Source: Haemophilus parainfluenzae (GTDB taxonomy: Bacteria; Pseudomonadota; Gammaproteobacteria; Enterobacterales; Pasteurellaceae). Taken from it: 64,000 nucleotides of DNA. This document shows, piece by piece, positions 7,288-59,283 of this stretch. The translations under genes and the position numbers were made by a program. The stretch's first letter is position 1; each line of letters starts with the position of its first letter. The stretch spans positions 1,359,001 to 1,423,000 of the forward strand of contig NZ_UGHY01000002.1 in NCBI RefSeq assembly GCF_900450995.1, read 5' to 3'. The notes under the pieces were generated by a model that saw only the letters and a list, made by a program, of their open reading frames with translations, had not been told where the DNA came from and ran no database searches.

Positions 7288-7296
7288 CATTTTTAT

Positions 7297-42351: not shown

Positions 42352-42383
42352 AAAGTGCGGTCATTTTTGGCCGCACTTTTTGT
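42352..42383 (+). terminator. Terminator after glnA from an uptake-signal pair
   Basis: AAAGTGCGGTC and GGCCGCACTTT pair over a short loop and are followed by T-rich sequence. Confidence 0.82.
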
Positions 42384-42385
42384 AT

Positions 42386-42413
42386 GTGATATCACGTTGA
42401 ATTCGTGTATAAT
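42386..42413 (+). promoter_or_regulatory. Candidate promoter of the polysaccharide locus
   Basis: A consensus TATAAT box lies at 42408-42413, 30 bases before the wzm ATG. The -35 region is weak, but a perfect palindrome GTGATATCAC (42386-42395) sits there and could bind an activator. Assignment is based on sequence only. Confidence 0.5.
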
Positions 42414-42442
42414 AGAAATCCGATTATAGATAGGACTAGATT

Positions 42443-43234
42443 ATGCTAAATAAATTTGTAGGCAAATTTCGCCGATTTTATGCATTCGATGAACTTTTAA
42501 AACAACTTATCATAAGAGATGTAAAACTCAAGTACCGCCGCAGTTATTTGGGGTATTTATGGAGTATATTGAACCCCTTAATGTTAATGATGGTTCTTGT
42601 TGTTGTTTTCTCTAATCTCTTCCGATTTGATATTCCTAATTTCCCACTTTATATGATCTCGGGTCAATTTCTTTTTAATTTTATGACTGAAGCAACCAAT
42701 ATGTCTGTTGGTTCAATTACTGGAAATTCTGCCTTAATAAAGAAGACATATGTGCCAAAATATGTTTTTACAGTTTCTAAGGTAGGAAGTTCTCTAGTTA
42801 ACTTACTCTTTTCTCTTGGAGCCTTGCTGTTAGTAATGATTTTTACAGATGCAGAGTTTTCTTGGAATCTCTTATTTTTTCCTGTCATTATTTTAGAAGT
42901 ATTTATTTTTAGTTTAGGACTTGGTTTGTGGCTTTCTGCGATTACAGTCTTTTTTCGTGATATTCAGTATTTATGGGGCGTATTTATTTCAATGTGGATG
43001 TACCTTACTCCATTATTCTATCCCGTATCAATCATTCCGGAGGAATACCAAGAGTTATACAAAAATGCAAATCCAATGTATGGCTATATTGAGCAATTCA
43101 GAGATATCGTCTTACATGCAAAATTTCCACAGACTGATTCGATTCTAATCGGTTTTGGTACGGCTATTTTGGTTCTTGTCCTTGGGGCTTGGTATTTTAA
43201 TAAAAAACAAGACGAGTTTATTTTATATATCTAA
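42443..43234 (+). CDS. wzm: Polysaccharide ABC transporter permease
   Basis: ABC-2 type membrane protein, 263 residues, six hydrophobic segments, with the family N-terminus LLKQLIIRDVKLKYRRSYLGYLWSILNPL and the YLTPLFYPVSIIPEEYQ segment. It forms the channel that flips a finished O-chain on its undecaprenyl carrier across the inner membrane with Wzt. It is the first gene after glnA. Its stop overlaps the wzt start. Confidence 0.93.
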   Translation: MLNKFVGKFRRFYAFDELLKQLIIRDVKLKYRRSYLGYLWSILNPLMLMMVLVVVFSNLFRFDIPNFPLYMISGQFLFNFMTEATNMSVGSITGNSALIKKTYVPKYVFTVSKVGSSLVNLLFSLGALLLVMIFTDAEFSWNLLFFPVIILEVFIFSLGLGLWLSAITVFFRDIQYLWGVFISMWMYLTPLFYPVSIIPEEYQELYKNANPMYGYIEQFRDIVLHAKFPQTDSILIGFGTAILVLVLGAWYFNKKQDEFILYI

Positions 43235-43965
43235 TGAATAAAGAAACAGTAATTAAAGTCACTAATGCTACGGTGCGTTTTAATAAAGCAACCGAACAAT
43301 ATAATGGCTTAAAAGAATATGTGATTAAGATGCTAAAAGGGGAACTGATGTTCCAAGAGTTTTTAGCATTAAAAGATGTTAATCTTGAAGTGAAGAAAGG
43401 TGAGTCTTGGGGGTTAGTTGGTACCAATGGTTCTGGTAAGTCGACTCTTTTAAAGTTAATTTGTGGTATTTTAAAACCCTATAAAGGCATTGTCGAAGTA
43501 CATGGTAATATCGCACCTCTCATTGAGCTTGGTGCAGGTTTTGATGGGGAACTTACTGCAAGAGAGAATATCTATCTCAATGGTGCTCTGCTTGGACATA
43601 AGAAAGCTTTTATGGAGCAGCATTTTGATGAAATTATTGAGTTTGCGGAGCTTCAAGATTTTGTGGATGTGCCACTTAAAAACTTTTCATCTGGTATGGC
43701 AGCACGCCTTGGTTTTGCGATAGCGACGATTGTTAAGCCAGAAATTCTCATTGTGGATGAAGTGCTTGCTGTAGGCGATGCAGCCTTCCAAGAAAAATGT
43801 AAAAAACGTATGGAAGAAATGCTTGCTGGTGGCACAACATTATTGTTTGTTTCCCACTCAATTGAGCAAGTAAAAGAGCTTTGCCAGAATGTGATTTGGA
43901 TTGATAAAGGTATCGCAAAAGCTTCTGGTAAAACAGAAGATATAATCCCATTATACGATGTATGA
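43234..43965 (+). CDS. wzt: Polysaccharide ABC transporter ATPase
   Basis: A 243-residue ATPase with Walker A GTNGSGKSTLLK, Q-loop region, signature LKNFSSGMAARLGFAIA, Walker B ILIVDEVLAVGD and the switch His in LLFVSHS. It has only the nucleotide-binding domain; the C-terminal carbohydrate-binding domain that reads chain-terminator caps in some Wzt proteins is absent, so chain length is likely set in another way (inference). It overlaps wzm by one base and the gtrA gene by eight. Confidence 0.94.
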   Translation: MNKETVIKVTNATVRFNKATEQYNGLKEYVIKMLKGELMFQEFLALKDVNLEVKKGESWGLVGTNGSGKSTLLKLICGILKPYKGIVEVHGNIAPLIELGAGFDGELTARENIYLNGALLGHKKAFMEQHFDEIIEFAELQDFVDVPLKNFSSGMAARLGFAIATIVKPEILIVDEVLAVGDAAFQEKCKKRMEEMLAGGTTLLFVSHSIEQVKELCQNVIWIDKGIAKASGKTEDIIPLYDV

Positions 43966-44326
43966 TTTTTATATGTTTTCTAAATATATTCTAGTCGGTA
44001 TCATCAATACCGCCATTACAGCACTACTTATTCTTTTATTAATGTATTTGGGATTAGGCGTATATACTTCTAATGCGTTCGGTTATATTGCTGGCATTAT
44101 CGTTAGCTTTATATTAAATACATTATTTACTTTCTCAACTAAACTCACATGGAAAAGATTTATAAAATTTATAATAAACTGTGGGATTTGTTATGTGGTT
44201 AATTTAGTTGTAATTTATCTAGTTTTATTCATTAATAATGAATGGATCTATTTTGCACAATTATTCGGTATGGGAGCTTATACCGTTTCAGGTTTTATTT
44301 TAAATAAATTATGGGTGATGAAATAA
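43958..44326 (+). CDS. gtrA: GtrA-like flippase for undecaprenyl-linked sugar
   Basis: A 122-residue GtrA/DPMS-type membrane protein with four hydrophobic segments (FSKYILVGIINTAITALLILLLMYLG, GYIAGIIVSFILNTLFTF, GICYVVNLVVIYLVLF, TVSGFILNKLWV). In phage Gtr systems it moves undecaprenyl-phosphate-glucose to the periplasmic face. It precedes gtrB with overlapping stop and start (TAATG). Confidence 0.88.
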   Translation: MYDFYMFSKYILVGIINTAITALLILLLMYLGLGVYTSNAFGYIAGIIVSFILNTLFTFSTKLTWKRFIKFIINCGICYVVNLVVIYLVLFINNEWIYFAQLFGMGAYTVSGFILNKLWVMK

Positions 44327-45312
44327 TGCCAACAGAACAGAACAGAACAGAACGGCCATCTTTGGCGATCGTTGTTCCTTGTTATAACGAAAGTGAAGTT
44401 TTTAGCTATTGCTTGAATGCACTAACAGATATTTTAAAAGATCTTATTAATAAGAATAAGATTAAAGCAAATAGTTATGTACTTTTTGTTGATGATGGTA
44501 GCAAAGATGACACTTGGCAACAAATCGAGCAAGCAAGTAACGTATCCAATCTCATTCGTGGAGTAAAACTCTCTCGTAATAAAGGACACCAAATTGCACT
44601 CTTAGCAGGTTTGTATTCTGTAGATACTGATGTGAGTATCAGTATTGATGCCGATTTGCAAGATGATACCAATTGCATTTATGAAATGCTTGATAAATAT
44701 ATGCAAGGTAATGAAATTGTTTATGGCGTTCGCAATGATCGTACAACAGATACGGCATTTAAACGCGGCACAGCTGGACTGTTTTATACCTTAATGACTA
44801 AATTAGGTGTTGAGCAAACTGAAAATCACGCAGATTATCGTTTACTGAGCTCTAAAGCATTAGATGCATTAAAACAATATAAAGAGCAAAATGTATATCT
44901 ACGTGGAATGATCCCATTAATAGGCTTTAAAAACGACAAAGTCTATTACACAAGAAGTGAACGTATTGCGGGTGATTCTAAATATCCATTAAAGAAAATG
45001 TTAGCTCTTGCATTAGAAGGTATTACTTCGTTAAGTATTGCCCCATTGCGTTTAATCTCAGTGATTGGTTTTCTAACTTGCTTATTTTCCGCTTTAGCAG
45101 GAATTTATGTTTTAGTGGATAAACTATTAGGAAACACAGTAGAAGGTTGGACATCACTTATGATTGCAATTTTCTTCTTAGGTGGAGTTCAAATGCTATC
45201 ACTTGGTGTAATTGGTGAGTACGTTGGTAAGATCTATATTGAAAGTAAGAATAGACCAAAGTTTTTTGTTGAAAGATGCAGTATATCTAAGAATTTTTAT
45301 CCTGACAATTAA
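44326..45312 (+). CDS. gtrB: GtrB-like undecaprenyl-phosphate glucosyltransferase with AACAG repeats
   Basis: GT2 enzyme that makes undecaprenyl-phosphate-glucose from UDP-glucose. The 328-residue product has VVPCYNESEVFSYC, VDDGSKDDTW, the DADLQDD metal motif, NHADYRLLSSKALDALKQYKE and two C-terminal transmembrane segments (LISVIGFLTCLFSALAGIYVLV, MIAIFFLGGVQMLSLGVIGEYVGKIY). The start ATG 44326 overlaps the gtrA stop; a longer in-frame start is at 44311. Two codons in, four copies of AACAG (44331-44350) form a repeat whose gain or loss would shift the frame. Confidence 0.93.
   Translation: MPTEQNRTERPSLAIVVPCYNESEVFSYCLNALTDILKDLINKNKIKANSYVLFVDDGSKDDTWQQIEQASNVSNLIRGVKLSRNKGHQIALLAGLYSVDTDVSISIDADLQDDTNCIYEMLDKYMQGNEIVYGVRNDRTTDTAFKRGTAGLFYTLMTKLGVEQTENHADYRLLSSKALDALKQYKEQNVYLRGMIPLIGFKNDKVYYTRSERIAGDSKYPLKKMLALALEGITSLSIAPLRLISVIGFLTCLFSALAGIYVLVDKLLGNTVEGWTSLMIAIFFLGGVQMLSLGVIGEYVGKIYIESKNRPKFFVERCSISKNFYPDN
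44331..44353 (+). repeat. Pentanucleotide repeat (AACAG)4 at the start of gtrB
   Basis: Four perfect AACAG units plus AAC follow the start codon of gtrB within the reading frame. Five is not a multiple of three, so loss or gain of a unit closes the frame. Confidence 0.9.
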
Positions 45313-45321
45313 AGAGGACTT

Positions 45322-46389
45322 ATGAGTAAGAAAATTCTCGTCACTGGTGGTGCAGGCTTTATCGGTTCTGCAGTTGTTCGCCATATTATTGAAAACACGC
45401 AAGATAGCGTAGTAAACGTTGATAAATTGACCTATGCAGGTAATTTAGAATCCCTTGAAGCGGTAGAAAATCATCTACGCTATGCGTTTGAGCAAGTAGA
45501 TATTTGTGATGCGAAAGCACTCTCTCGCGTGTTTGAGCAACACCAACCAGATGCGGTGATGCACTTAGCGGCAGAAAGCCACGTTGACCGTTCTATTGAT
45601 GGTCCTGCTGCCTTTATCGAAACTAACATTGTGGGAACTTACACCCTATTAGAAGCCGCTCGTGCTTATTGGAATACCTTAAGCGATGAGAAAAAAGCAG
45701 CATTCCGTTTCCACCATATTTCTACCGATGAAGTATATGGTGATTTAGAAGGGACAGATGAGCTCTTTACTGAAACCACACCTTATGCACCAAGCAGCCC
45801 TTACTCTGCTTCAAAAGCCTCAAGTGATCACTTAGTTCGTTCGTGGTTGCGTACTTATGGCTTACCAACGATTGTGACTAACTGTTCAAATAACTATGGT
45901 CCATTCCACTTCCCTGAAAAACTAATTCCATTAATGATCTTAAATGCGTTAGATGGTAAACCATTACCTGTGTATGGCAACGGTCAACAAATCCGTGACT
46001 GGTTATTTGTGGAAGATCACGCACGCGCTTTATATAAAGTGGTAACAGAAGGCGAAATCGGTGAAACCTACAACATTGGTGGACATAACGAAAAAGCTAA
46101 CATTGATGTCGTTCGCACTATCTGCGCCTTATTAGAAGAATTAGTACCAAACAAACCTGAAGGAGTAGTAAAATACGAAGATTTAATCACCTATGTGAAA
46201 GACCGCCCAGGCCATGATGTACGTTATGCGATTGATGCAGCAAAAATTGGTCATGAATTAGGCTGGAAACCACAAGAAACCTTTGAATCTGGTATTCGCA
46301 AAACCGTGGAATGGTATCTAAACAACAAAAAATGGTGGAGTCGCGTGTTAGATGGTTCTTATAACCGTGAGCGTTTGGGTAGTCAATAA
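45322..46389 (+). CDS. rmlB: dTDP-glucose 4,6-dehydratase
   Basis: NAD-dependent SDR enzyme, second step to dTDP-L-rhamnose. The 355-residue sequence has [14 protein letters not shown], the DERIVED catalytic pair [24 protein letters not shown] and [13 protein letters not shown]. Codons here are richer in G/C than in the downstream glycosyltransferase genes. First gene of the rhamnose cassette, followed by rmlA. Confidence 0.97.
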
Positions 46390-46464
46390 TTTTACAAGCG
46401 GTTAGGTTTTGGTACTTTTTGGCAAAACAGAGCAAAAACTAACCACACTTTAAAAAGGATCTCT

Positions 46465-47337
46465 ATGAAAGGCATTATTCTCGCAGGCGGTTCTGGCACT
46501 CGCCTCTACCCAATTACTCGTGGTGTGTCGAAACAGCTTTTGCCTGTTTACGACAAACCGATGATTTACTATCCGCTTTCAGTGCTTATGCTGGCGGGTA
46601 TTCGTGATATTTTGATTATCACCACACCTGAAGATAACGAGAGCTTCAAACGCTTATTAGGCGATGGTTCAGATTTCGGCATGAATTTACAATACGCTAT
46701 TCAACCTAGCCCAGATGGTCTTGCGCAAGCCTTCTTAATTGGTGAAGAATTTCTCAACGGCGATAGCTGCTGTTTAGTGCTAGGCGATAACATTTTCTAC
46801 GGCCAGCACTTCACACAAATGTTGCAAGAGGCGGTTGCACAGCCTTATGGCGCAACGGTATTTGGTTATTTAGTGAAAGATCCTGAACGTTTTGGCGTAG
46901 TGGAATTTGACGAAAACTTCAAAGCTATTTCCATTGAAGAAAAACCCACTCAGCCGAAATCAAACTATGCCGTAACAGGTTTATATTTCTATGATAACCG
47001 CGTAGTGGATTTTGCAAAACAAGTCAAACCATCGGCGCGTGGTGAATTAGAAATTACCACATTAAATGAAATGTATCTAAAAGACGGTTCGTTAAACGTG
47101 CAATTACTTGGACGTGGTTTTGCGTGGTTAGATACGGGCACACACGAGAGTTTACACGAAGCCGCTTCTTTTGTTCGCACCATCGAAAATGTACAAGGTT
47201 TACAAGTCGCTTGCTTAGAAGAGATTGCGTGGCGTCATGGCTGGCTCACATCTGAACAAGTGGAGCAACTGGCTAAACCAATGGCAAAAAATGAGTATGG
47301 GCAATATCTGCTTAGAATAATTAAGGAAAAAAAATAG
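46465..47337 (+). CDS. rmlA: Glucose-1-phosphate thymidylyltransferase
   Basis: Makes dTDP-glucose from dTTP and glucose 1-phosphate, first step of the dTDP-rhamnose route. The 290-residue sequence has the [20 protein letters not shown] nucleotidyl motif and [42 protein letters not shown]. rmlD begins two bases after the stop. Confidence 0.97.
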
Positions 47338-47338
47338 C

Positions 47339-48223
47339 ATGGCTAAACTCCTAATTACGGGAGCAAATGGGCAGGTAGGTTTCATTCTTTCTCAAAAATT
47401 AAGAAATGAATCAAAACACGAAGTATTGGCACTATCCCATGCTGAGCTTGACATAACGAATAAAGAAGCAGTTTCCTCCATTGTAGATTCTTTTGCTCCC
47501 GATGTAATCATTAATTGTGCCGCATATACAGATGTAGATAAAGCTGAGTCAAAAATAAAACTAGCTTATGATGTTAATATGAATGGCGTAAAATATTTAG
47601 CAGAAGCTGCAAATAAATGTAATGCAACTATTTTACATATATCAACTGATTATGTATTTGATGGGGGTAAGACGGATAAATATACAGAAAAAGATATTAT
47701 CCATCCTATCAGTGTCTACGGTAGTTCTAAGGCGAAAGGAGATACTATCCTTTTATCTTTATCTCCAAAAGCTATAATTCTAAGAACCTCATGGGTATTT
47801 GGCGAGCACGGTAATAACTTTGTTAAAACCATCCTGGGTTTAGCAAAAAGTAAAGATACCTTAGCTGTGGTTAGCGATCAAATTGGCGGCCCGACTTATG
47901 CTAAGGATGTTGCGACAGCATTAATTTATATTGCTGAACAAATTATTGAAGATGGAAATATTAGATATGGTATTTATAATTTTGCTGGTAAACCTTGCGT
48001 AAGTTGGTATGATTTTTCGAAAACTATTTTTGAGGAAGCTGTTTCGCAAAACGTATTAGAAAAATCACCGCTTGTGAATGCGATTACCACAGCAGATTAC
48101 CCAACACCAGCCAAACGCCCACTAAATTCTTGCTTAGATTTGACAAAAATACAACAAGTGTTCGGCATTCAACCAAGCGATTGGCAAGCAGCATTGAAAA
48201 ACATTAAGGCATATATAGAATAA
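47339..48223 (+). CDS. rmlD: dTDP-4-dehydrorhamnose reductase
   Basis: NAD(P)H-dependent last step to dTDP-L-rhamnose. The 294-residue product has LLITGANGQVGFILSQKLR, the active-site TDYVFDGGKTDKYTE and YGSSKAKGD, and RTSWVFGEHGNNFVKTI. Its codon usage is AT-richer than rmlB and rmlA. A small RelA/SpoT-like gene follows before rmlC. Confidence 0.95.
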   Translation: MAKLLITGANGQVGFILSQKLRNESKHEVLALSHAELDITNKEAVSSIVDSFAPDVIINCAAYTDVDKAESKIKLAYDVNMNGVKYLAEAANKCNATILHISTDYVFDGGKTDKYTEKDIIHPISVYGSSKAKGDTILLSLSPKAIILRTSWVFGEHGNNFVKTILGLAKSKDTLAVVSDQIGGPTYAKDVATALIYIAEQIIEDGNIRYGIYNFAGKPCVSWYDFSKTIFEEAVSQNVLEKSPLVNAITTADYPTPAKRPLNSCLDLTKIQQVFGIQPSDWQAALKNIKAYIE

Positions 48224-48235
48224 AAAAGGGAAAAT

Positions 48236-48808
48236 ATGCTTGAGAAAATAGAGCGTTTAATTGATGAAATTAATAAAGTTCATCTTGCTTTTTCAAAAGA
48301 TTATTTTGAAACAGATAAAATTGAGAAAGTTAATTTAAAACATACGCTAGCAAAAGCGCCTGTGGAGCATATTTTATCTTATCGCTTAAACTTACACGAA
48401 TCAATCAATGATTATTTATATCGAGCGGATTTATATGATGTCCCTTATTTTTATCGGGTAAAAACATCAGAATCTATTTTAGATAAAATTGAACGATTTA
48501 AACAACGTAGTGAAGGTTATCCTGTAAATAGCATTTTAAATGATATTTTTGGTGCACGAATTGTTGTTTCTTCTGAAGATATTGCTCAAGTGATGGAGCA
48601 ATTAGATAATTGGAAAGAAAAATATGGCTTGAAAAATTGGTATTTACGCGATAAAGATGAATATGTAGGCATTCATATTTATTTCAAAAATGCCAGCAAC
48701 TTTTATTACCCTTGGGAATTACAAATTTGGGATAAAAAAGATGCCGAAAAAAACATTCAAAGCCACCAAAAATATAAACGTAATTTTGTAAAAAATAAGG
48801 ATTCTTAA
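48236..48808 (+). CDS. Small RelA/SpoT-domain protein inside the rhamnose cassette
   Basis: A 190-residue protein with the motif order of a RelA/SpoT synthetase domain: R74-x-K76 and K84 (YRVKTSESILDKIERF, compare RPKHIYS..RK), D103 and R108-I109 (NDIFGARIVV, compare YDVRAVRI), Y143 and IH at 146-147 (EYVGIHIYF, compare NGYQSIH), E161 and Q163 (WELQIWD, compare EVQIRT) and H177-x2-YK (HQKYK, compare HWKYK). No hydrolase, TGS or ACT domain exists, as in small alarmone synthetases. It lies 12 bases after rmlD and its stop overlaps the rmlC start (TAATG), so it is part of the operon. Whether it makes (p)ppGpp, acts on another nucleotide or is a toxin is unknown. Confidence 0.75.
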   Translation: MLEKIERLIDEINKVHLAFSKDYFETDKIEKVNLKHTLAKAPVEHILSYRLNLHESINDYLYRADLYDVPYFYRVKTSESILDKIERFKQRSEGYPVNSILNDIFGARIVVSSEDIAQVMEQLDNWKEKYGLKNWYLRDKDEYVGIHIYFKNASNFYYPWELQIWDKKDAEKNIQSHQKYKRNFVKNKDS

Positions 48809-49350
48809 TGAAAGTTATTGATACCAAAATCCCCAATGTAAAATTATTAGAACCGCAAGTATTCGGCGATGAGCGCGGATTCTTTATGGAAACTTTCCGT
48901 GATGAATGGTTTAAACAAAATGTTGCAGACAGCACTTTTGTGCAAGAAAACCACTCAAAATCAGTGAAAGGCGTATTGCGCGGGTTACATTACCAAACCG
49001 AGAATACACAAGGCAAATTAGTGCGCGTGGTATCTGGTGCGGTGTTTGATGTGGCTGTAGATATGCGTGAAAACTCCCCTACATTTGGACAATGGGTGGG
49101 AGAGATTCTATCTGCCGAAAACAAACGCCAACTTTGGGTGCCAGAAGGTTTTGCACACGGTTTTTATGTGCTAAGTGATGAAGCTGAATTTACCTATAAA
49201 TGCACAGACTACTACAATCCAAAAGCTGAACATTCTTTAATTTGGAATGATAAAACTGTAGGAATTGAATGGCCTTTGGATGGAAACCCAAACTTATCTC
49301 AAAAGGATTTATTAGGAAAATCGTTACAAGATGCAATTACTTTTAAGTGA
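48808..49350 (+). CDS. rmlC: dTDP-4-dehydrorhamnose 3,5-epimerase
   Basis: Cupin-fold epimerase, third step to dTDP-L-rhamnose. 180 residues with DERGFFMETFRDEWF, VLRGLHYQ, GKLVRVVSGAVFDVAVDMR, WVPEGFAHGFYVL and EFTYKCTDYYNPKAEHSL. The start overlaps the stop of the RelA/SpoT-like gene. The RgpF-like gene follows after 30 bases. Confidence 0.97.
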   Translation: MKVIDTKIPNVKLLEPQVFGDERGFFMETFRDEWFKQNVADSTFVQENHSKSVKGVLRGLHYQTENTQGKLVRVVSGAVFDVAVDMRENSPTFGQWVGEILSAENKRQLWVPEGFAHGFYVLSDEAEFTYKCTDYYNPKAEHSLIWNDKTVGIEWPLDGNPNLSQKDLLGKSLQDAITFK

Positions 49351-49379
49351 CTGATAATGTTAGGAAATAATATTAAGAG

Positions 49380-51293
49380 ATGAAAAATATGAAACGTTTA
49401 GCAATTTATTTATTCTATGATCATGATGGAATTGTAGATGATTATATCCCGTATAAACTAGAGAAACTAAAAGAGTTTGTCCAAGACATTTGGTTTGTTT
49501 CAAATTCAGATTTAACAGCTGAGTCACGTAAAAAAATTCAACATTGCACAGATTACGTTATGTGCCGAGAAAATATTGGATTTGATGTTTGGGGATATAA
49601 AGAGGCAATTGAGAAAATTGGCTTTGATAAACTAGCTGAATATGATGAACTTATTCTATTAAATTATACTTTCTTTGCACCTATCTTCCCATTCTCAGAA
49701 TTATTTGAGTGGTCAGAAAAGCAAGATGTTGATTTCTGGGGAATATCGGATCATGGAAAGGTCCAACCTAATCCGTTTACCGGTACAGGTGTTTTACATA
49801 AGCATATTCAATCGCATTTTATTGCAGTCAGAAAGAATATGTTAAATTCGCATGAATTTGAGCATTATTGGAAAAATATGCCAATGATCCATTCATATAC
49901 AGACTCAGTGTTAATGCATGAGTCTAGATTTACACATCATTTCTACTCTAAAGGGTATAGTTATGCTGTTTATGTAGATTCTGATGTTTTTGGTAGTAAA
50001 TATCCAACATTCTATGAAATTGATGATACATTTAGTAAATCTCGTTCTCCTATCTTAAAGAGAAGACCTTTTTTTCATGATCCATTACATCATGATAGAG
50101 AATGCTTATTTTTAAGAAGAGCCATAGAATACATTCAAGAACAATCAGAATACCCGATAGAGCTGATAATTAAAAATATCTTAAGAACATCAAAACCTAA
50201 AGATATTGCAACTAATATGACTTTATTAAAAGTCTTTGATTCTTTAAATACTGTAAAACTTAGAGAGAATTTGAAAATTCTTGTGGTTGCACATATATTC
50301 TATGCAGATATGCTTGAAGAGATATTATTTTATACCGAAAATATACCTTGCAAATATGATTTGCTTATTACGACGTCAAGTAAAGAGCAAAGAGAAGAGA
50401 TCTTATCTTCTCCTATATTGGAAACAATAAATACAAATAATATTAAGGTGATTGTAACTGAGCAAAATAGAGGACGAGATATGTCTTCACTATTTATTAG
50501 TTGTAAAGATGATATTATGAATAGTGATTATGATTGGGTCTGTCGTTTACATTCAAAAAAATCTCCTCAAAATGGTTATAACATGGCGAAACATTTTAAG
50601 GAAATGATGTATTTAAATTTATTGAAGGATAAAGCATATGTATCTAAGTTACTTAATTATCTAGATAATAATAAAAACATAGGTTTTGCAATGCCTTCAA
50701 TGGTTCATATTGGATATCCAACTCTTGGGCATGCTTGGTATAGTAATAAACCTCTTTGCTTAGAGATAGCCAAAAAACTAAATATTAATGTGCCTTTTGA
50801 CGATATATCTCCATTTGCTGCATACGGTACCATGTTCTGGTTTAGACCAAAAGCATTGCGTAAGCTTTTTAAATATAACTGGAAGTTTGAAGATTTTAAT
50901 AAAGAACCAATGCATTACGATGGTTCGTTGGCTCATGTTTTAGAACGATTATTAGCTTATGTTGCTCATGATGCAGGTTACTTAGCATGTAACATTATGT
51001 CGTCAGAAATGATGGAGCTAAATTACACTAAGTTAGAATATAAGATGCAAAGATTGGTAAGTAATCTATCTAATGGAGATATACCTTATCAAATTCACTT
51101 AGCTCACAACGCTAAGCATATGTTAGGAAATAATGCCTCATCAGGAACTTCGAATGTTAGCCGCTATTTCTTAATTAACGTAGTGCGATTATTAAAAAAT
51201 CACGTATTAGGTAACTATCCTAGATTATCTAAATTAACACGAATGCCATATAGAAAATTAAGACATTATTATCATAAATTAAGAGGACATTAA
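49380..51293 (+). CDS. RgpF-like rhamnan-synthesis glycosyltransferase
   Basis: A 637-residue protein of the rhamnan synthesis protein F family, two tandem parts. Residues 1-260 show RLAIYLFYDHDGIVDDYI, RENIGFDVWGYKEAIEKIG, ELILLNYTFFAP; residues about 280-560 show ILVVAHIFYADMLEEILFY, EQNRGRDMSSLFIS, DWVCRLHSKKSP, FAAYGTMFWFRPKALRKLF. Family members add rhamnose to growing cell-surface chains, which fits the adjacent rmlBADC cassette. The start is ATG 49380 or 49389. No signal or membrane segment is evident except a weakly hydrophobic region near the C-terminus. Confidence 0.88.
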   Translation: MKNMKRLAIYLFYDHDGIVDDYIPYKLEKLKEFVQDIWFVSNSDLTAESRKKIQHCTDYVMCRENIGFDVWGYKEAIEKIGFDKLAEYDELILLNYTFFAPIFPFSELFEWSEKQDVDFWGISDHGKVQPNPFTGTGVLHKHIQSHFIAVRKNMLNSHEFEHYWKNMPMIHSYTDSVLMHESRFTHHFYSKGYSYAVYVDSDVFGSKYPTFYEIDDTFSKSRSPILKRRPFFHDPLHHDRECLFLRRAIEYIQEQSEYPIELIIKNILRTSKPKDIATNMTLLKVFDSLNTVKLRENLKILVVAHIFYADMLEEILFYTENIPCKYDLLITTSSKEQREEILSSPILETINTNNIKVIVTEQNRGRDMSSLFISCKDDIMNSDYDWVCRLHSKKSPQNGYNMAKHFKEMMYLNLLKDKAYVSKLLNYLDNNKNIGFAMPSMVHIGYPTLGHAWYSNKPLCLEIAKKLNINVPFDDISPFAAYGTMFWFRPKALRKLFKYNWKFEDFNKEPMHYDGSLAHVLERLLAYVAHDAGYLACNIMSSEMMELNYTKLEYKMQRLVSNLSNGDIPYQIHLAHNAKHMLGNNASSGTSNVSRYFLINVVRLLKNHVLGNYPRLSKLTRMPYRKLRHYYHKLRGH

Positions 51294-51297
51294 TTCA

Positions 51298-52110
51298 ATG
51301 AATATTATTGTAACTGGAGCTAATGGTTATATTGGAAGAAATATTGTAAAAACACTGTTAAATAAAGGCCATCAAGTCACTGCTATGCTCTTTGATGGGG
51401 AAACACCCCATCCTTTTTTAGAAGGCGCAAACTTATTTTATGGAAATATATTTGCACTATCTCAAGATGAAAAATGTGATTTAGTTAAAAATGCAGAATA
51501 TTTATTGCATTTAGCTTGGCAGGCAGGGTTTAATCATCGTGACTCTTCTCATTTAGCTAATGTCATGAAACATTATGAGTTTCTTACATCTATAGCTGAA
51601 TTAGGTATAAAAAATATCTCTGTTGCTGGAACGATGCACGAGGTGGGATATTTTGTTGGTGCTATAGATGAAAATACGCCTTGCAATCCAAGAAATCCTT
51701 ACGGCATAGCGAAAAATTTTTTACGTCAAGCTATGTTTGATTTTGCAAGTGTAACACCAGAATTAAATTTACAGTGGCTGCGCTTTTACTATATTACTGG
51801 AGATGATCGTTTTAGTAATTCCATTTTTACAAAAATCTTAAAGGCTGAAGATGAAGGTCAAGAATTTTTCCCATTGAATAGCGGAGAAATGCTTTATGAT
51901 TTCGTTGATATTACGGAACTCTCAGCACAAATAGAAGAAAGAATTTTAAGCAAAGAAAGAGGTATATTTAATTGTTGCTCAGGCAAACCGAAGAGTTTAA
52001 GAACCGCTGTAGAAGAGTTTATTACTGAGCATAACTTAAAAATTAAGCCTAAGTATAATGTTTTTCCGGCAAGAACTTATGATTCTATGGCTACTTGGGG
52101 AAAAAGATAA
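51298..52110 (+). CDS. NAD-dependent sugar epimerase/reductase
   Basis: A 270-residue SDR protein: the cofactor motif is IIVTGANGYIGRNIVKTLL, with YGIAKNFLRQ (Y-x3-K) as the catalytic pair and LLHLAWQAG. It is close to dTDP-4-dehydro-6-deoxyhexose reductases that make sugars such as dTDP-6-deoxytalose or fucose, so it may branch from the rml intermediates. That substrate is inferred from place only. It directly precedes the acyltransferase gene (one base apart). Confidence 0.75.
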   Translation: MNIIVTGANGYIGRNIVKTLLNKGHQVTAMLFDGETPHPFLEGANLFYGNIFALSQDEKCDLVKNAEYLLHLAWQAGFNHRDSSHLANVMKHYEFLTSIAELGIKNISVAGTMHEVGYFVGAIDENTPCNPRNPYGIAKNFLRQAMFDFASVTPELNLQWLRFYYITGDDRFSNSIFTKILKAEDEGQEFFPLNSGEMLYDFVDITELSAQIEERILSKERGIFNCCSGKPKSLRTAVEEFITEHNLKIKPKYNVFPARTYDSMATWGKR

Positions 52111-53151
52111 ATGCAAGAGAAACAACATCTATTTTATGTTGATGCGATTAAGATTATAGCTTGTATATCAATCATACTATTTCATCTTAATGTTCATGCA
52201 TTTTATTCAAATAATAGCGCTTCTTTGATTGGTTCTCTTACTTATTTTAATGTTAGTTTTGGTGATCTTTGGATATCAATGTTTATTATTATTTCTGGAT
52301 TAACATTAGCATTAACAAACAGAGAAAATTTTAGTATAAGGGGTTTCTTTAAAAAAAGGTTTTTAGCAATCTATCCTTCATTTTGGATTACCTATATATT
52401 GGTTGCTTTAGTCTTTCTAATCATTCTACATAAACCTTTTGGTGATGGAGAATATTGGAAAATTATATTAACATTTATTGGTTTAGATGGTTTCTTTTTA
52501 TATAAATTTCCTAGCTATTACCTGGTTGGTGAATGGTATACAGGGTATATGCTGATAACCTATCTGTTCTTTCCAGTATTGTATATATTTTTTTCTAAGA
52601 AACCAATTATCTCATTTATTATAATAATTGCTATTGTTGCATGTGTATTTAATATTTATTCAGAAATATTTCAGATTCCTCAGACGATTAATCCAATAAT
52701 GAGACTACCTGATTTTTTCTTTGGAATAATTTTTACTACATTTTTGTCTAAAAATGACACGTGCAAAATGATATTACCTGTATTATCTTTAATTTACTTA
52801 AGATTTTCAGATTTCGCTCATGCGCATATTCCATATCATTTTCATATGATTTTAACAGGGATTTCATTATTTTTGATTCTCGAATGTATTTTTAGGGTGA
52901 TTGGTCAATATCTACCCCCAAAAATATTAGATAAAACAGCATACTGGGCCCAATATACTTTTTTAGCATTCCTTATACATCATCAGGTTTTATTGTATTT
53001 CTTTCAGGAGATACCTAATCTACCTAATGAAAACTCTACTTTCAAATTAAGTATTTGGGTTTCTGTTTGTGTGATAAGCTTTTCTTATGCCATTATTATA
53101 TATCCAGTTGTGAGTAGTTTTTCTAAGTTTCTTTTTAAAAGAATAATGTGA
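52111..53151 (+). CDS. Acyltransferase-3 family membrane O-acyltransferase
   Basis: A 346-residue membrane protein with about ten hydrophobic segments and the family N-terminus YVDAIKIIACISIILFHLN with the conserved His, then FFKKRFLAIYPSFWITYI (conserved Arg). Family members O-acetylate LPS or other surface sugars. It is highly AT-rich. It lies between the epimerase and the GtrII-type gene, so it most likely modifies the O-chain. Confidence 0.88.
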   Translation: MQEKQHLFYVDAIKIIACISIILFHLNVHAFYSNNSASLIGSLTYFNVSFGDLWISMFIIISGLTLALTNRENFSIRGFFKKRFLAIYPSFWITYILVALVFLIILHKPFGDGEYWKIILTFIGLDGFFLYKFPSYYLVGEWYTGYMLITYLFFPVLYIFFSKKPIISFIIIIAIVACVFNIYSEIFQIPQTINPIMRLPDFFFGIIFTTFLSKNDTCKMILPVLSLIYLRFSDFAHAHIPYHFHMILTGISLFLILECIFRVIGQYLPPKILDKTAYWAQYTFLAFLIHHQVLLYFFQEIPNLPNENSTFKLSIWVSVCVISFSYAIIIYPVVSSFSKFLFKRIM

Positions 53152-53169
53152 TTTTTATAGGAACCTTGT

Positions 53170-54699
53170 ATGTATTTCTTATCTAATTGCAAATATAGTT
53201 TTGATGAATTTATCGATTTTCTAAGAAATAACTTATTTCTTATTAATATTACCGTTTTCTTTCTGCTATTGGGGTATGGAATAAAACTATTTTCACTAAG
53301 CTTCTCAATCGATACTGAGGCCATTATTTCTATTACTGATTCTCAATATAGTGCTTGGCATGAATTAGGGCGTACTGGGCTTGTGCTATTTAAACATTTG
53401 ATGGGTATTGGTTGGTATAATAATGCATTAGCATCTTTTTTAATGGTTCTATTTATTGGCTTATCTGCATTAGTATGGGCTTATTTACTAAACGGAGGAG
53501 TAAAAAAGAATCATTCTCTTCTTTTTTTTACAATACCAGTTGTTTCATCGCCTATTATTGCTGAAATGCTAGGATTCTTATTAATGGGGATGGAAGTTGC
53601 TCTAGCCCTTATATTTATTGCTATAAGTTTGATGTGCACTCAGAACTGGATTTTTAGTAAATCAAGAATAGCACTTTTATTTGCAATAATTTTTAGCTTT
53701 ATTGCATTTTCTATTTATCTAGCTATGGTGACGATATTTATCACTGCAACTTTCTTTGTGGTTTTTACGAAAATAGAAAATAATAATAGATTAAATAAGG
53801 AAACTGTATTTGTTACAATTAGATATGTTCTCGTATTTTTATTATCTTATTTAGCTTATACTATTTTTAATAAAGGAGCCCAATGGTATTTTGACATATC
53901 CACTCATCCATATATATCAGAGCAACTAAGATGGGGTAAGGATGATATTCACATTATCCTTAGCAATCTCTTAAATCATCTTATTGAAATATATTATTCG
54001 AATAGTATATTCTTCACTAAGTGGTTTCTAATTGTTTCCATAGTATTTTTCTTATTGCTGTTAATTAAAACATTTTATGAAAAAAAATCTACATATAACT
54101 TATTGATTGCGATCTGTATAGTTGCCTCTCCATTTATGATGGGCATTATTCTAGGTAATAGAACTACAGAACGAACAATAATGACTCATCCATTTGCCTT
54201 GGGTTTTATGCTATTTTATATTTATCAACATATTCAAAAACAGCATAAATACCTTAAGGGTATTTTAGTATTAACTCTGTCAGTTATTGGATTGTCTCAA
54301 AGCTACGTAGTGAATAGAATATTTTATACTGAGGCTATTACGTATCAGCAAGACGTTAATTTGGTTTATAGCGTCCAAAATAAAATAGGTGAGCTTGGAT
54401 TCGGCGAGTTTCCTCCCTATCCCGTTGCATTCATTGGTTCACATAGCGTTAAATGTAATAATAGTTGTTATTCTAACCAAAAATTAGCTCTTACGGGTCG
54501 TTCTTTATTTGAAATAACTTTTGGCAATGAGCATGGAACTTTTGTAAAGAACCATTTTTTTGCAGCTCAAGGTGCAAGCTATAATCTCCCATCTAGTGAA
54601 CAAATACAAATTGCGACAAAAGTCTCCGAGAATATGCCTCATTGGCCATCAAAAGGAAGTATTGCATTAGTAAATGATGTTATTATTGTTAACTTTTGA
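53170..54699 (+). CDS. GtrII-type (GtrC) glucosyltransferase
   Basis: A 509-residue multi-spanning protein (about ten to eleven hydrophobic segments) with the Glucos_trans_II pattern: SFSIDTEAIISITDSQYSAWHELGRTGLVLFKHL, ISEQLRWGKDD, IILGNRTTERTIMTHPFALGFML and a soluble C-terminal periplasmic part (GFGEFPPYPVAFIG). Such proteins use undecaprenyl-P-glucose made by GtrB and flipped by GtrA to glucosylate the chain. It sits about 8 kb from gtrA/gtrB in the same locus. It is AT-rich, suggesting recent transfer. Confidence 0.85.
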   Translation: MYFLSNCKYSFDEFIDFLRNNLFLINITVFFLLLGYGIKLFSLSFSIDTEAIISITDSQYSAWHELGRTGLVLFKHLMGIGWYNNALASFLMVLFIGLSALVWAYLLNGGVKKNHSLLFFTIPVVSSPIIAEMLGFLLMGMEVALALIFIAISLMCTQNWIFSKSRIALLFAIIFSFIAFSIYLAMVTIFITATFFVVFTKIENNNRLNKETVFVTIRYVLVFLLSYLAYTIFNKGAQWYFDISTHPYISEQLRWGKDDIHIILSNLLNHLIEIYYSNSIFFTKWFLIVSIVFFLLLLIKTFYEKKSTYNLLIAICIVASPFMMGIILGNRTTERTIMTHPFALGFMLFYIYQHIQKQHKYLKGILVLTLSVIGLSQSYVVNRIFYTEAITYQQDVNLVYSVQNKIGELGFGEFPPYPVAFIGSHSVKCNNSCYSNQKLALTGRSLFEITFGNEHGTFVKNHFFAAQGASYNLPSSEQIQIATKVSENMPHWPSKGSIALVNDVIIVNF

Positions 54700-54711
54700 A
54701 TCGATAATAAA

Positions 54712-55590
54712 ATGAGTTTAAACTATTCCGTGATTGTATGCACCTTCAACGGTGCATCTTTTATATCAGAACAACTAAAGAGCATTTTATCTCAGCCTAT
54801 TCTGCCACAAAAAATTATTGTATCGGATGATAGTTCTTGCGATGAAACCCTTGCTATTGTCCAGCAAATTTTTGCTCAGGCTAACTTTGCGGCTTATCAA
54901 ATTGTACAAGGTCCTAAAAAAGGCGTGATCGCTAATTTTCTGTCTGCCTTAACGCATTGTGAAGCAGATTTTACTTTTTTAGCGGATCAAGATGATATTT
55001 GGCACTTGGATAAGATCACAGAATTTGCTCAAATGGCTGAAAAGCAAAATAGTAATGTTCCAACTCTGACTTTCAGTGATGCTCGTTTGATTGATGAACA
55101 AAATCAAGAAATCGCCCCAAGTTTTTTTGCTTACCAGGCTTTAAGTGCAGAATGTTTGAACGATGATTCAATTTTGTATAAAAATTGCGTGCAGGGAGCA
55201 GCTTGTATGATCAATCGAGCCTTACGTAATCTAGCATTAGAGTCTTTATCTTATACTCAACTTTCTGAACTTTATATGCACGATTGGTGGTTGGCACTGT
55301 TAGCGCGCTATTATGGTGAAACACAATTTATAGATAAGCCTTTGCTAGATTATCGTCAACATTGCCAAAATCAGATTGGCGTGTTTAATCATAAATTTCG
55401 TGCACTTTATTATGTAAGCCGTTTTCGTTCTTACTGGAAAAATTTTCGCCAATCCATTCGACAGGCCAAAATGTTTGAGTATTTTGTTACGCAATATGGA
55501 AAGCCGCATGGTTTGCCTGTAAAGTCAAAGCGGATTTATCATAGTGTGCCAACATTAAAGAAATGGATATTGCCACTTTTTGCAAAATAA
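54712..55590 (+). CDS. GT2 family glycosyltransferase (rhamnosyltransferase-like)
   Basis: A 292-residue GT-A enzyme with VIVCTFNGASFISEQLKSIL, IIVSDDSSCDETLAIV, FLADQDDIWHLDKI (metal-binding DQDD) and HDWWLALLARYYG. This composition is typical of rhamnosyl- or galactosyl-transferases of O-antigen loci. Donor and linkage are unknown. It overlaps no gene; the next GT2 gene starts eight bases after it. Confidence 0.88.
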   Translation: MSLNYSVIVCTFNGASFISEQLKSILSQPILPQKIIVSDDSSCDETLAIVQQIFAQANFAAYQIVQGPKKGVIANFLSALTHCEADFTFLADQDDIWHLDKITEFAQMAEKQNSNVPTLTFSDARLIDEQNQEIAPSFFAYQALSAECLNDDSILYKNCVQGAACMINRALRNLALESLSYTQLSELYMHDWWLALLARYYGETQFIDKPLLDYRQHCQNQIGVFNHKFRALYYVSRFRSYWKNFRQSIRQAKMFEYFVTQYGKPHGLPVKSKRIYHSVPTLKKWILPLFAK

Positions 55591-55598
55591 GGAAAAAA

Positions 55599-56528
55599 AT
55601 GACCGCTCTTCGGTTTGTATTATGCATACCAACCCACAACGCCGACAATCTCTGGAAAGACTGGATTGCCGCTTATCAATCTCAGTCCTTAAAAGCAGAT
55701 AAAGTCATTGTGATTGATTCTTCTTCTTCTGATAATACGGTAAAACTAGCGGAAGAAGCGGGATTTTCAATTCATACGATTCTGAAATCTATATTTAACC
55801 ATGGTAGAACTCGTAACCAAGCGGTTGAATTTGCCAAAAGTTTTGCTGATGTAGTGGTATTTATGACTCAAGATGCAATTTTGGCTTCACCAGATTCGTT
55901 AGCGAATTTACTCGTTCCCTTTCTAGATCCTGAAGTAGCCGCTGTTTGTGGACGACAGTTGCCACATCATGAAGCAACAGCGCTAGCAGTTCATGCTCGT
56001 TATTTTAATTATCCGTCTGAGTCCAGAGTAAGAACTATGGCTGATATTTCAGAATTAGGTATCAAGACAGCATTTATGTCTAATTCTTTTGCTGCATACC
56101 GCTTATCTGTATTTGATAAATTAGGAGGATTTCCGGATAACACAATTCTAGCTGAAGATATGTATTTAACAGCAAAAATGATTTTGTCTGGGTATAAAAT
56201 TGCTTACTGTGCTGAGGCAACCGTATTTCACAGTCATAACTATACACTAAAACAAGAATTCCAACGTTATTTTGATACCGGTGTATTTCAGCAAGAACAT
56301 AAATGGATTCAACAGAAATTTGGTAGGGCTGCTTCTGAGGGAAAAAGGTTTGTACTATCAGAATTAAAGTTTTTATCCATAAAGTCACCGCATTTAATTC
56401 CTAAAGCTATATTATCTACATGTGCTAAGTGGCTCGGCTTTAAATTAGGTTATTATTACTATAGATTACCTTATAAGTGGTGTAGGGCTTTTAGTATGCA
56501 TAAAGGATATTGGAATAAAGTAACATGA
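55599..56528 (+). CDS. GT2 family glycosyltransferase (rhamnosyltransferase-like)
   Basis: A 309-residue GT2 enzyme with VLCIPTHNADNLWKDWIAAY, VIVIDSSSSDNTVKLAEEAG, FNHGRTRNQAVEFA (typical of rhamnosyltransferases) and MTQDAILASPDSL. The start ATG 55599 follows a GGAAAA ribosome site; the open frame extends upstream into the preceding gene. The stop overlaps wbaP by four bases. Confidence 0.88.
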   Translation: MTALRFVLCIPTHNADNLWKDWIAAYQSQSLKADKVIVIDSSSSDNTVKLAEEAGFSIHTILKSIFNHGRTRNQAVEFAKSFADVVVFMTQDAILASPDSLANLLVPFLDPEVAAVCGRQLPHHEATALAVHARYFNYPSESRVRTMADISELGIKTAFMSNSFAAYRLSVFDKLGGFPDNTILAEDMYLTAKMILSGYKIAYCAEATVFHSHNYTLKQEFQRYFDTGVFQQEHKWIQQKFGRAASEGKRFVLSELKFLSIKSPHLIPKAILSTCAKWLGFKLGYYYYRLPYKWCRAFSMHKGYWNKVT

Positions 56529-57943
56529 ATAGAGCCAATTTTATTAAGTTTTTTCAAATTTCTGTAGATTTTGTTTCTTTCTGGATTTCTATTTTTTTAG
56601 CATCCTTTGTTTTACTTAAATTTAGTAGGGAGGATGGTCAATATTTTCCCATAGAGCAACTTTCATCTTTTATTTTTATTCATAGCCTTATGGGAGGCTG
56701 TTGTGTTATTTGGTTTTGGATTCGTTTTCGTCATTATACCTACCGCAAGCCATTTTGGTTTGAGTTAAAAGAGATATTTAGAACATTATTAATTATTTTT
56801 GTTATTGAGCTAGCTATAGTTGCTTTTTCCCGTCTTTATGTTTCTCGTTATTTTTGGTCTATAACTTGGCTTTTTGTTTTTACTTTAGTGCCCTTGGGGC
56901 GAGTTTTAATCAAAAATTTACTTATCAAATTAGGATGGTATTTGAAAGAAACCATTATTATTGGCAATGGTAAGAATGCGAAAGAAGTATTTGATGCATT
57001 AAATAATGAACCATATTTAGGATTTGATATTAAGTTGTTTATAACTACTGAAGAATATAAGTCAGAGTATATTGAAGGTGTGCCAGTAATGCGCCATAAT
57101 CCCGAGTTGCTGATCAAACTGGTATCTCCAGAATTTACACAGTTTATTCTTGCTATAGATGAGGAAAATAAAGTAAAGCAGGATTTCTGGTTGCGTTATT
57201 TAATTCGAAAAGGTTGCCGTTCTATCTCAGTTATTCCTGATTTTCGAGGTATTCCGCTTTATGGTACGGATATGTCTTTTCTGTTTAGCCATGAAATGGT
57301 ACTGTTTCGAGTAAATAATAACTTAGCAAAGCGGTCTTCTCGATTGATTAAAAGAGTCTTTGATATATTGGGTGCCTCTTTTCTTATTCTTTTCTTATTC
57401 CCATTATGTATCCCATTATATTTTCTTATTAAGAAAGATGGGGGGAAACTAATTTATGAGCATTCAAGAATTGGTCAGAATAAAAAAGAATTCAAATGTT
57501 TGAAGTTTAGAACGATGGTAAATAATTCCGATGAAGTGTTAGAAAAACTTTTAGCAACGGATGAAAGTGCTAGACTAGAATGGGAAAAAGACTTCAAACT
57601 TAAAGATGATCCACGCATTACACCAATAGGAAGATGGTTAAGAGCGAGAAGTCTAGATGAATTGCCACAGCTTTGGAATGTTCTCAAAGGTGAAATGAGT
57701 TTAGTGGGACCTCGCCCAATAGTAAAAGAGGAGTTACCTTATTATCAGGACGACGTTGATTATTATCTTATGGCAAAGCCTGGAATGACAGGTTTATGGC
57801 AAGTTAGTGGACGAAATAATGTAAGTTATGATACTCGTGTCTATTTTGATACTTGGTACGCAAAGAACTGGTCATTATGGAATGATATCGTGATTCTATT
57901 TAAAACATTTAAAGTTGTATGGAAGAAGACCGGAGCTTATTAG
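56525..57943 (+). CDS. wbaP: Undecaprenyl-phosphate galactose phosphotransferase
   Basis: Starts the O-chain by moving galactose 1-phosphate (or another hexose 1-phosphate) to undecaprenyl phosphate. The 472-residue protein has four to five N-terminal membrane segments, a central nucleotide-binding-like domain (about 140-260), a further membrane segment (about 280-300), and the C-terminal catalytic domain with EHSRIGQNKKEFKCLKFRTMV, DPRITPIGRWLRARSLDELPQLWNVLKGEMSLVGPRPI. It is the last gene of the locus; pepB follows. In H. influenzae the homologue lies at the same place. Confidence 0.93.
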   Translation: MNRANFIKFFQISVDFVSFWISIFLASFVLLKFSREDGQYFPIEQLSSFIFIHSLMGGCCVIWFWIRFRHYTYRKPFWFELKEIFRTLLIIFVIELAIVAFSRLYVSRYFWSITWLFVFTLVPLGRVLIKNLLIKLGWYLKETIIIGNGKNAKEVFDALNNEPYLGFDIKLFITTEEYKSEYIEGVPVMRHNPELLIKLVSPEFTQFILAIDEENKVKQDFWLRYLIRKGCRSISVIPDFRGIPLYGTDMSFLFSHEMVLFRVNNNLAKRSSRLIKRVFDILGASFLILFLFPLCIPLYFLIKKDGGKLIYEHSRIGQNKKEFKCLKFRTMVNNSDEVLEKLLATDESARLEWEKDFKLKDDPRITPIGRWLRARSLDELPQLWNVLKGEMSLVGPRPIVKEELPYYQDDVDYYLMAKPGMTGLWQVSGRNNVSYDTRVYFDTWYAKNWSLWNDIVILFKTFKVVWKKTGAY

Positions 57944-57981
57944 CAAAGTAACTTATACAATAAATAAAGGAGAAGAACTAC

Positions 57982-59283
57982 ATGCAAATTACATTATCAA
58001 CGGCTCCCACTTCGGAGAGTTGGGGCAAAAATGCCATTTTAAGTTTTAATCAAGATCAAGCCGTTATTCATCTTAAAGATGATGAAAAATCGAACCTTGT
58101 TTTAATTCAAAAAGCCGCACGTAAGTTACGTGGACAAGGTATTAAAGATGTTGAGCTTGTGGGGGATGTATGGGAATTAGAAAATTGCTGGGCATTTTAT
58201 CAAGGTTTTTACTCGGCGAAGCAAGATTATGCAATTGAATTTCCTCATTTAGATGATGAGCCACAAGATGAATTATTGGCCCGTATTGAATGTGGCGATT
58301 TTGTGCGTGAAATTATTAATGAACCGGCACAAACCCTTACTCCGGTTAAATTAGCAGAACGCGCAGTTGAGTTTATTTCTAAACAAGCCGAAAATTATGC
58401 CGATAAAAGTGCGGTCAGTTTTCAAATCATTTCTGGTGAAGCGTTAAAAGAGCAAGGTTACCATGGGATCTTTACTGTGGGTCGTGGTTCTATTAATCCA
58501 CCCGCTATGTTGCAATTAGATTTTAATCCGACTAATGATCCAAATGCGCCAGTATTAGCCTGTTTAGTCGGTAAAGGTATTACTTTTGACAGTGGCGGTT
58601 ATAGTATCAAACCAAGTGATGGTATGAGTACCATGCGTACCGATATGGGCGGAGCGGCGTTATTAACGGGCACATTAGGATTTGCCATTGCGCACGGTTT
58701 AAATCAACGTGTAAAACTCTATTTATGCTGTGCAGAAAACTTGGTGAGTGGTAATGCGTTTAAATTGGGTGATATCATCACGTATAAAAATGGTGTAACC
58801 GCTGAAATTTTAAATACTGATGCGGAAGGCCGTTTAGTATTGGCGGATGGCTTAATTGAAGCCGATAGTCAAAATCCACAATTTATTGTTGATTGTGCAA
58901 CCTTAACCGGTGCAGCGAAAGTAGCAGTCGGTAATGATTACCACAGTGTACTTTCTATGGATGATGCGTTGGTAAATAGCCTATTCCAAGCTGCGAAAGA
59001 AGAAAATGAACCGTTCTGGCGCTTACCTTTCGAAGCGTTTCATCGTAGCCAAATCACTTCTTCTTTTGCTGATATTGCAAATACAGGTACAGCGCCGGTT
59101 GTCGCGGGCGCAAGTACTGCAACGGCATTTTTATCGTATTTTGTGAAAAACTATCAACAACGTTGGTTGCATATTGATTGTTCGGCCACTTATCGTAAAT
59201 CAGGTAGTGATTTATGGGCGGTTGGCGCAACTGGAATCGGTGTGAAAACATTAGCAAATTTATTAGTAACGAAAGCAAGTTAA
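57982..59283 (+). CDS. pepB: Peptidase B (M17 leucyl aminopeptidase family)
   Basis: Broad aminopeptidase of the cytoplasm with two metal ions. 433 residues; the M17 signature [17 protein letters not shown] and [28 protein letters not shown] blocks are intact. ATG 57982 has a GGAG ribosome site. It marks the right border of the polysaccharide locus, as in related species. Confidence 0.96.

Follow-up and report, generated by a model that had tools for sequence, protein, structure and literature searches.

Between rmlD and rmlC in the rhamnose cassette of Haemophilus parainfluenzae (contig NZ_UGHY01000002.1) lies a small gene for a RelA/SpoT-fold synthetase. The stretch analysed here is 64,000 nucleotides long (contig positions 1,359,001 to 1,423,000); it is called the window below, and coordinates refer to it. 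A previous reading of these letters without database searches, the sequence-only reading, had described an open reading frame (ORF) of 190 residues at 48236-48808 on the forward strand, starting 12 bases after rmlD, with a stop codon overlapping the rmlC start. The ORF was confirmed as real, rmlD ends at 48223, and the rmlC start at 48808 overlaps the stop by one base. The encoded protein appears nearer in sequence and modelled fold to the toxic small alarmone synthetases (toxSASs) than to the housekeeping small alarmone synthetases (SASs), and in the loci examined it is solitary. The features of the locus are as follows.

48236..48808, forward strand: RelA/SpoT-fold synthetase gene, apparently nearest to the tRNA-targeting toxSASs FaRel2 and PhRel2, with no adjacent antitoxin gene found (ORF, Pfam, profile, fold and residue conservation).
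48224..48235, forward strand: 12-base leader with the Shine-Dalgarno-like AAGGGA, nearly the entire 5' part of the insert (occupied against empty rmlD-rmlC junctions); putative ribosome-binding function.
48797..48801, forward strand: AAGGA in the final codons of the synthetase gene, 6 bases 5' of the rmlC ATG, read from the letters as the likely Shine-Dalgarno sequence of rmlC.
47339..48223, forward strand: rmlD, the upstream neighbour (Pfam PF04321, identity profile).
48808..49350, forward strand: rmlC, the downstream neighbour (Pfam PF00908).
45322..46389, forward strand: rmlB-like gene of the same cassette, which we take to be rmlB (ORF; 87-93% identity to copies in loci L001, L002, L003, L006, L008 and L010).
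46465..47337, forward strand: rmlA-like gene of the same cassette, presumably rmlA (ORF and relatives).
42362..58406, no strand: 16-kb stretch without the uptake-signal 9-mer (exact count), mainly polysaccharide genes, enclosing the synthetase gene.

The identity of the protein as a synthetase was confirmed. RelA_SpoT (PF04607) was matched over residues 74-183 at 34 bits (curated cut-off 27) and is the sole Pfam match above cut-off, in keeping with the earlier statement that no regulatory domain is present; the hallmarks of long RelA/SpoT homologues (RSHs), namely the HD hydrolase and C-terminal regulatory domains, were not found in these 190 residues. PHROGs returned phrog_4012, a phage family of unknown function, at 8e-80, and nothing useful came from NCBIfam or from a single-sequence PDB search. 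Conservation was read in 135 proteins of at least 180 residues, out of 137 comprising the query and its best listed homologues, which represent the near part of the family. All five synthetase motifs traced previously are present (R74-x-K76, D103..R108, Y143-x-G145-x-H147, E161-x-Q163 and H177..YK181) and near-invariant: R74, K76, G145 and H177 occur in all 135 proteins, D103, R108, Y143, E161 and Q163 in 134, and H147 in 133. Conservation of D103 and E161 (134 of 135 each), on which the proposal of a synthetase had been made to depend, was thus borne out. The same holds for the fold, since the best matches of a single-chain AlphaFold2 model (mean predicted local distance difference test score 90.6) are the synthetases FaRel2, RelQ, RelP and Rel. 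A stretch at residues 49-60, YRLNLHE..DY, is also near-invariant, each position counted being kept in 132-135 of the 135 proteins.

Among solved structures, FaRel2 of Coprobacillus sp. D7 (PDB 8pu1, 8pu3, 8pu4), a toxSAS known to attach pyrophosphate to the CCA end of tRNAs, is the nearest relative by profile and by fold. It is 26% identical to the window protein, has the same active-site residues and Y-x-G-x-H loop, and the match spans almost the whole chain including the N-terminal helix. In a family-only repeat of the profile search, from which three PhRel2-type rows were removed, the same order was recovered with weaker E-values, 4.7e-8 for FaRel2 against 0.0045 for the housekeeping SASs. 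PhRel2 of Paenibacillus phage Lily is 34% identical over its full length, and together with PhRel2 of GBSV1 and of a Ligilactobacillus plasmid it shares the Y-x-(G/A)-x-H..PWELQIW core and a phage or plasmid location; these three lack the stretch at residues 49-60, the last tyrosine excepted. RelQ and RelP, which have solitary genes, assemble as tetramers and synthesize (p)ppGpp, are alike in size and RelA_SpoT domain, but their fold similarity is lower and starts only at about residues 39-43. The acceptor motif of YwaC and 2be3 is Y-x-S-x-H, whereas that of the present family is Y-x-G-x-H.

The gene is under purifying selection, with ratios of nonsynonymous to synonymous substitution (dN/dS) of 0.04-0.12 when the window copy is set against other copies from Pasteurellaceae (11 comparisons). 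These values, and catalytic residues kept in 133-135 of 135 proteins, indicate that the activity is selected. The protein is the sole match of its kind in its own 2.24-Mb genome, which also encodes two long RSHs (open frames of 698 and 716 residues); the G-loop motif was not seen in the scanned stretch of the second, L180. Antisense coding over the gene was rejected, the reverse strand being rich in stops in the one frame read.

In published descriptions, toxSASs depend on an antitoxin encoded next door or fused to them. In three of three relatives read at 31-34% identity (GBSV1, Lily and the Ligilactobacillus plasmid), a Panacea-type gene stands directly downstream; for GBSV1 and the plasmid the call rests on Pfam, and the Lily gene, annotated GepA-like, begins with much the same residues. 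A profile of the three genes matched no ORF across 138 close-family loci, which overlap in part because some genomes are in two collections, and among 27,540 ORFs (the 138 and three control loci) it recovered its own three genes only. Panacea was not found in the genome of the window either. A Panacea antitoxin acting in trans was considered and rejected: 19 of the 140 Pasteurellaceae genomes have a Panacea gene, including 3 of the 27 carriers of the synthetase (Fisher p 1.0). No neighbour gene recurs in all contexts of the close family, and in nine of ten intact rml insertions there is no room for another gene between rmlD and rmlC, the tenth (G057) having a Uma2 gene beside the synthetase. 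An adjacent or fused antitoxin of type II or IV was not found, in a search that does not rule out antitoxins unlike Panacea that vary between sites, or antitoxins encoded elsewhere in the genome. FaRel2 is neutralised by a separate protein, ATfaRel2 (PMC11782079), whereas no antitoxin gene was found beside the present gene. CapRel, an antiphage fused toxin-antitoxin, resembles the present family as a prophage-borne single gene with a synthetase domain, and its adenine-site arginines and G-loop tyrosine have likely equivalents in the window protein; CapRel carries its own antitoxin domain, whereas the window protein consists of one domain. A self-inhibitory YxxY motif as in CapRel and ATfaRel2 was sought and rejected, because tyrosines 67, 71 and 73 lack that spacing and position 67 varies.

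Comparison of junctions revealed how little is inserted. Both rmlC and rmlD were detected in 39 of the 140 Pasteurellaceae genomes. The sequence-only reading had suggested looking for the same gene in other rml cassettes, and it occupies the same place in ten (G000, G022, G034, G039, G045, G050, G057, G086, G123 and G130); 29 have no intact copy in the junction, G131 retaining a remnant. Among 30 rmlC loci read, nine hold the gene or a remnant, 19 are closed (gap -4 to 19 bases) and two (G055 and G068) are open by about 625 bases, a gap filled in G068 by a Uma2 gene. Of the nine rml genomes outside these 30, G045 and G086 are occupied, and the other seven were judged from match coordinates only, by which G084, G041 and (by about 100 bases) G133 show a wider gap. 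Occupied and empty sites differ by a leader of about 12 bases with a Shine-Dalgarno-like sequence plus the ORF, whose end supplies the likely Shine-Dalgarno sequence of rmlC and, at several sites, its ATGA overlap. By these letters, translational coupling of rmlC to the synthetase gene through AAGGA is likely.

In the DNA tree of the 30 of 39 rmlC loci, occupied and empty lineages are mixed, sister lineages (G049/G050 and G056/G057) differ in occupancy on starred branches, and at least three changes are forced by such branches. In the protein tree, in which the mis-framed row L142 was disregarded, the tsaD and rpmE sites each form one side of a starred branch and the rml copies do not. The starred branches of both trees are compatible with a single inherited insertion as the origin of the rml copies, as well as with several. 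Synonymous divergence (dS) from the window copy is lower for the synthetase gene than for rmlC in G123 (0.48 against 1.99), G130 (0.76 against 1.90) and G022 (0.59 against 1.07). Identity to Rodentibacter rarus drops to 38-73% per 60-base bin at 47361-47780 within rmlD, most rmlA and rmlC bins being at 75-91%; rmlD thus reads as a mosaic gene with a 5' part far less R. rarus-like than its 3' part. The lower dS and this drop in identity together indicate that at least the close copies have moved independently of much of the sequence around them.

The family is large, with 885 homologues found by the single query and 1268 by a profile (the best 120 listed in each case). A contig scan gave 76 loci in Pasteurellaceae, Streptococcus, Lactococcus, Neisseria, Acinetobacter, Lysinibacillus, Fibrobacterota, Clostridia and others, and viral contigs gave 32; matches were also present in 26 of 50,697 records of phages and in 16 of 72,556 of plasmids, two of these "plasmids" being Neisseria sequences of 2.2 Mb. 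Distribution is patchy: 32 of the 140 Pasteurellaceae genomes have some match and 27 a full-length one, a count that includes G102, where a stop lies close to the start, and none of ten listed congeners of the source species has a match. Fragments or interrupted copies occur in G001, G002, G005, G131 and G102, with a very weak fragment in G009. Apart from the rml junction, Pasteurellaceae copies lie between a UDP-galactopyranose mutase and a glycosyltransferase gene (three), between rpmE and a glycosyltransferase gene (three), at tsaD (four) and at seven single sites; for some neighbours the name rests on similarity to the one that was scanned, and tsaD and rpmE are what we take these genes to be. 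In Streptococcus, 20 loci, including one clostridial metagenome-assembled genome (L049), have both parE and parC within five genes, six lie in a deoB/nucleoside phosphorylase junction, and in prophages and a satellite a repressor gene stands upstream and an integrase gene downstream. In the streptococcal loci L013-L040, parE-parC is a variable slot that also holds restriction-modification, Fic, AbiD-like and streptomycin-adenylyltransferase-like genes. Ten cargo proteins compared with PADLOC gave type IIG and type II restriction-modification, a specificity subunit, Fic (PDC-S04) and a weak AbiD, four having no match; by cluster membership, 7 of the 20 loci hold a defence-family cargo. The prophage, satellite and parE-parC places suit defence genes, which is context and not proof.

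Genes for Uma2, a putative endonuclease, were also observed in the rmlD-rmlC junction, alone in G068 and beside the synthetase gene in G057 (L127:901-1497 and L168:890-1486). In L049, a Uma2 gene (7293-8039) immediately precedes parE, with two further genes of the same cluster standing between the synthetase gene and parC. Two unrelated single-gene passengers, Uma2 and the synthetase, thus use the same kinds of junction.

The sequence-only reading had offered a toxSAS-like effector as the last of its options, and this is the one favoured by the evidence. The explanation preferred here, to which roughly even chances are given, is that of a solitary, horizontally mobile single-gene member of the tRNA-targeting side of the toxSASs, which settles in operon junctions and is released by phage. 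The gene is probably an anti-virus passenger and not a part of sugar synthesis. The mobile unit would hardly exceed an ORF with its ribosome-binding site, and low steady transcription would be provided by the host operon. In healthy cells the enzyme would be kept idle by means other than a neighbouring antitoxin, for which the YRLNLHE..DY stretch is a candidate gate; phage infection or a similar stress may then release it, and translation would be blocked by pyrophosphorylation of tRNA. The fold, the conserved active site, the nearest relatives, the patchy distribution, the several insertion sites and the purifying selection are observed, and solitariness holds for the loci examined; the tRNA chemistry and antiphage role are what we infer. 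Phage triggering has a precedent in CapRel (PMC9712102; PMC13423816). The rml position would provide expression and passage with a polysaccharide locus that is often exchanged, with no role in rhamnose synthesis. It is possible, and advanced tentatively, that the wider family is antitoxin-free and toxSAS-like, entering operon junctions of bacteria, prophages and satellites as bare ORFs, under an intrinsic or host check, perhaps involving the YRLNLHE..DY helix, that phage lifts; this would amount to a one-gene, one-domain, self-gated immunity that blocks tRNA.

Several observations weigh against the preferred explanation. A free toxSAS should kill, so the enzyme is either gated in a way not seen or without toxicity. 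Of the FaRel2 residues that contact the acceptor stem, K28 and R29, the family keeps only a part, where position 35 is K in 82 and S in 39 of 135 proteins and position 36 is H in 105 and R or K in 22; this region is described as divergent among toxSASs (PMC11559606). Basic residues are not in excess (isoelectric point 7.0), the PADLOC match of the protein is weak (PDC-S33, 3.7e-5), and GBSV1 PhRel2 has alanine in place of the Y-x-G-x-H glycine, which is therefore not universal in PhRel2. Many of the viral loci nearly duplicate streptococcal prophages and are not independent. In parE-parC, 13 of 20 loci have no defence family among the scanned cargo clusters, and the commonest partner, streptomycin-adenylyltransferase-like (15 of 20), has no PADLOC match. 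The low dS fails for G050 (1.53 for the synthetase gene against 1.23 for rmlC). Finally, a surface-polysaccharide gene adjoins 19 of the 27 Pasteurellaceae copies, which favours some tie and is explained here only by a supposed high exchange of such loci.

That last enrichment also speaks for a function in rhamnose or O-antigen synthesis, through a nucleotide or sugar nucleotide substrate or by tuning chain synthesis, as do the recurrence in 10 of 39 rml genomes, the sequence suited to translational coupling with rmlC, and a placement that supports the co-expression with dTDP-rhamnose synthesis proposed earlier. Across the 140 genomes the synthetase and rmlC co-occur more than expected (13 of 27 carriers against 26 of 113 other genomes, Fisher p 0.015), but this rests on the ten rml insertions, since without them the association is gone (3 of 17 carriers, 26 of 113 other genomes, p 0.76). 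Moreover, 14 of the 27 full-length carriers have no rmlC, 29 of 39 junctions lack an intact copy, the mixed rmlC lineages carry their forced changes, and copies in Streptococcus, phages and plasmids lie in unrelated contexts. The consistent co-occurrence with rml expected of a member of the dTDP-rhamnose pathway was not found in these genomes. On the co-occurrence statistics and the varied contexts, functional coupling to rhamnose was rejected; the link is positional, and a rhamnose function is highly improbable.

The main competing explanation is that of a nucleotide alarmone synthetase, which would make (p)ppGpp or (pp)pApp from free GTP, GDP or ATP for stress signalling. With its small size and low expression it would be tolerated because SpoT or similar hydrolases clear its product. 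All synthetase motifs are intact, the gene stands alone as do those of RelQ and RelP, several public records say GTP pyrophosphokinase, and the two long RSHs of the genome could hydrolyse the product. This explanation is nevertheless unlikely, given the nearer kinship to FaRel2 and PhRel2 than to RelQ and RelP, the Y-x-G-x-H in place of Y-x-S-x-H, and a patchy occurrence that includes prophage, satellite and plasmid copies. The same patchiness, with the broken copies described above, could point to a harmless selfish or decaying passenger whose enzyme is dead or unused. Such a passenger is improbable in view of the low dN/dS and the preserved catalytic residues.

What is new is an apparently antitoxin-less, operon-hitchhiking enzyme of the toxSAS kind. 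No antitoxin-free toxSAS family and no alarmone-type enzyme in rml operons was recognised among the open-licence papers listed by literature searches. A subfamily name for this clade may already exist; a survey of RSH subfamilies reportedly appeared in PNAS in 2020. A large family with the same active site and no recognisable antitoxin in the loci examined raises the question of how the enzyme is restrained, and the synthetase is a minimal protein for studying the restraint of toxSASs. Its mobility is striking, hardly anything beyond a ribosome-binding site and an ORF being slipped between two operon genes. Caution is also advised in annotation, since a gene labelled "GTP pyrophosphokinase" within a capsule, rml or topoisomerase operon probably serves neither the stringent response nor the pathway around it.

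Many of the carrier bacteria are naturally transformable. The uptake signal AAGTGCGGT has 30 exact copies in the window (0.41 expected by shuffling) and none at 42362-58406; the probability of any gap of this length, given 30 uniformly placed sites, is 0.005. Because the signal is absent there and found 30 times elsewhere in the window, the polysaccharide locus looks recently imported. RgpF-type rhamnan synthesis proteins are usual in streptococcal rhamnan loci, and one (521 bits) is encoded at 49380-51293 in this Pasteurellaceae polysaccharide locus.
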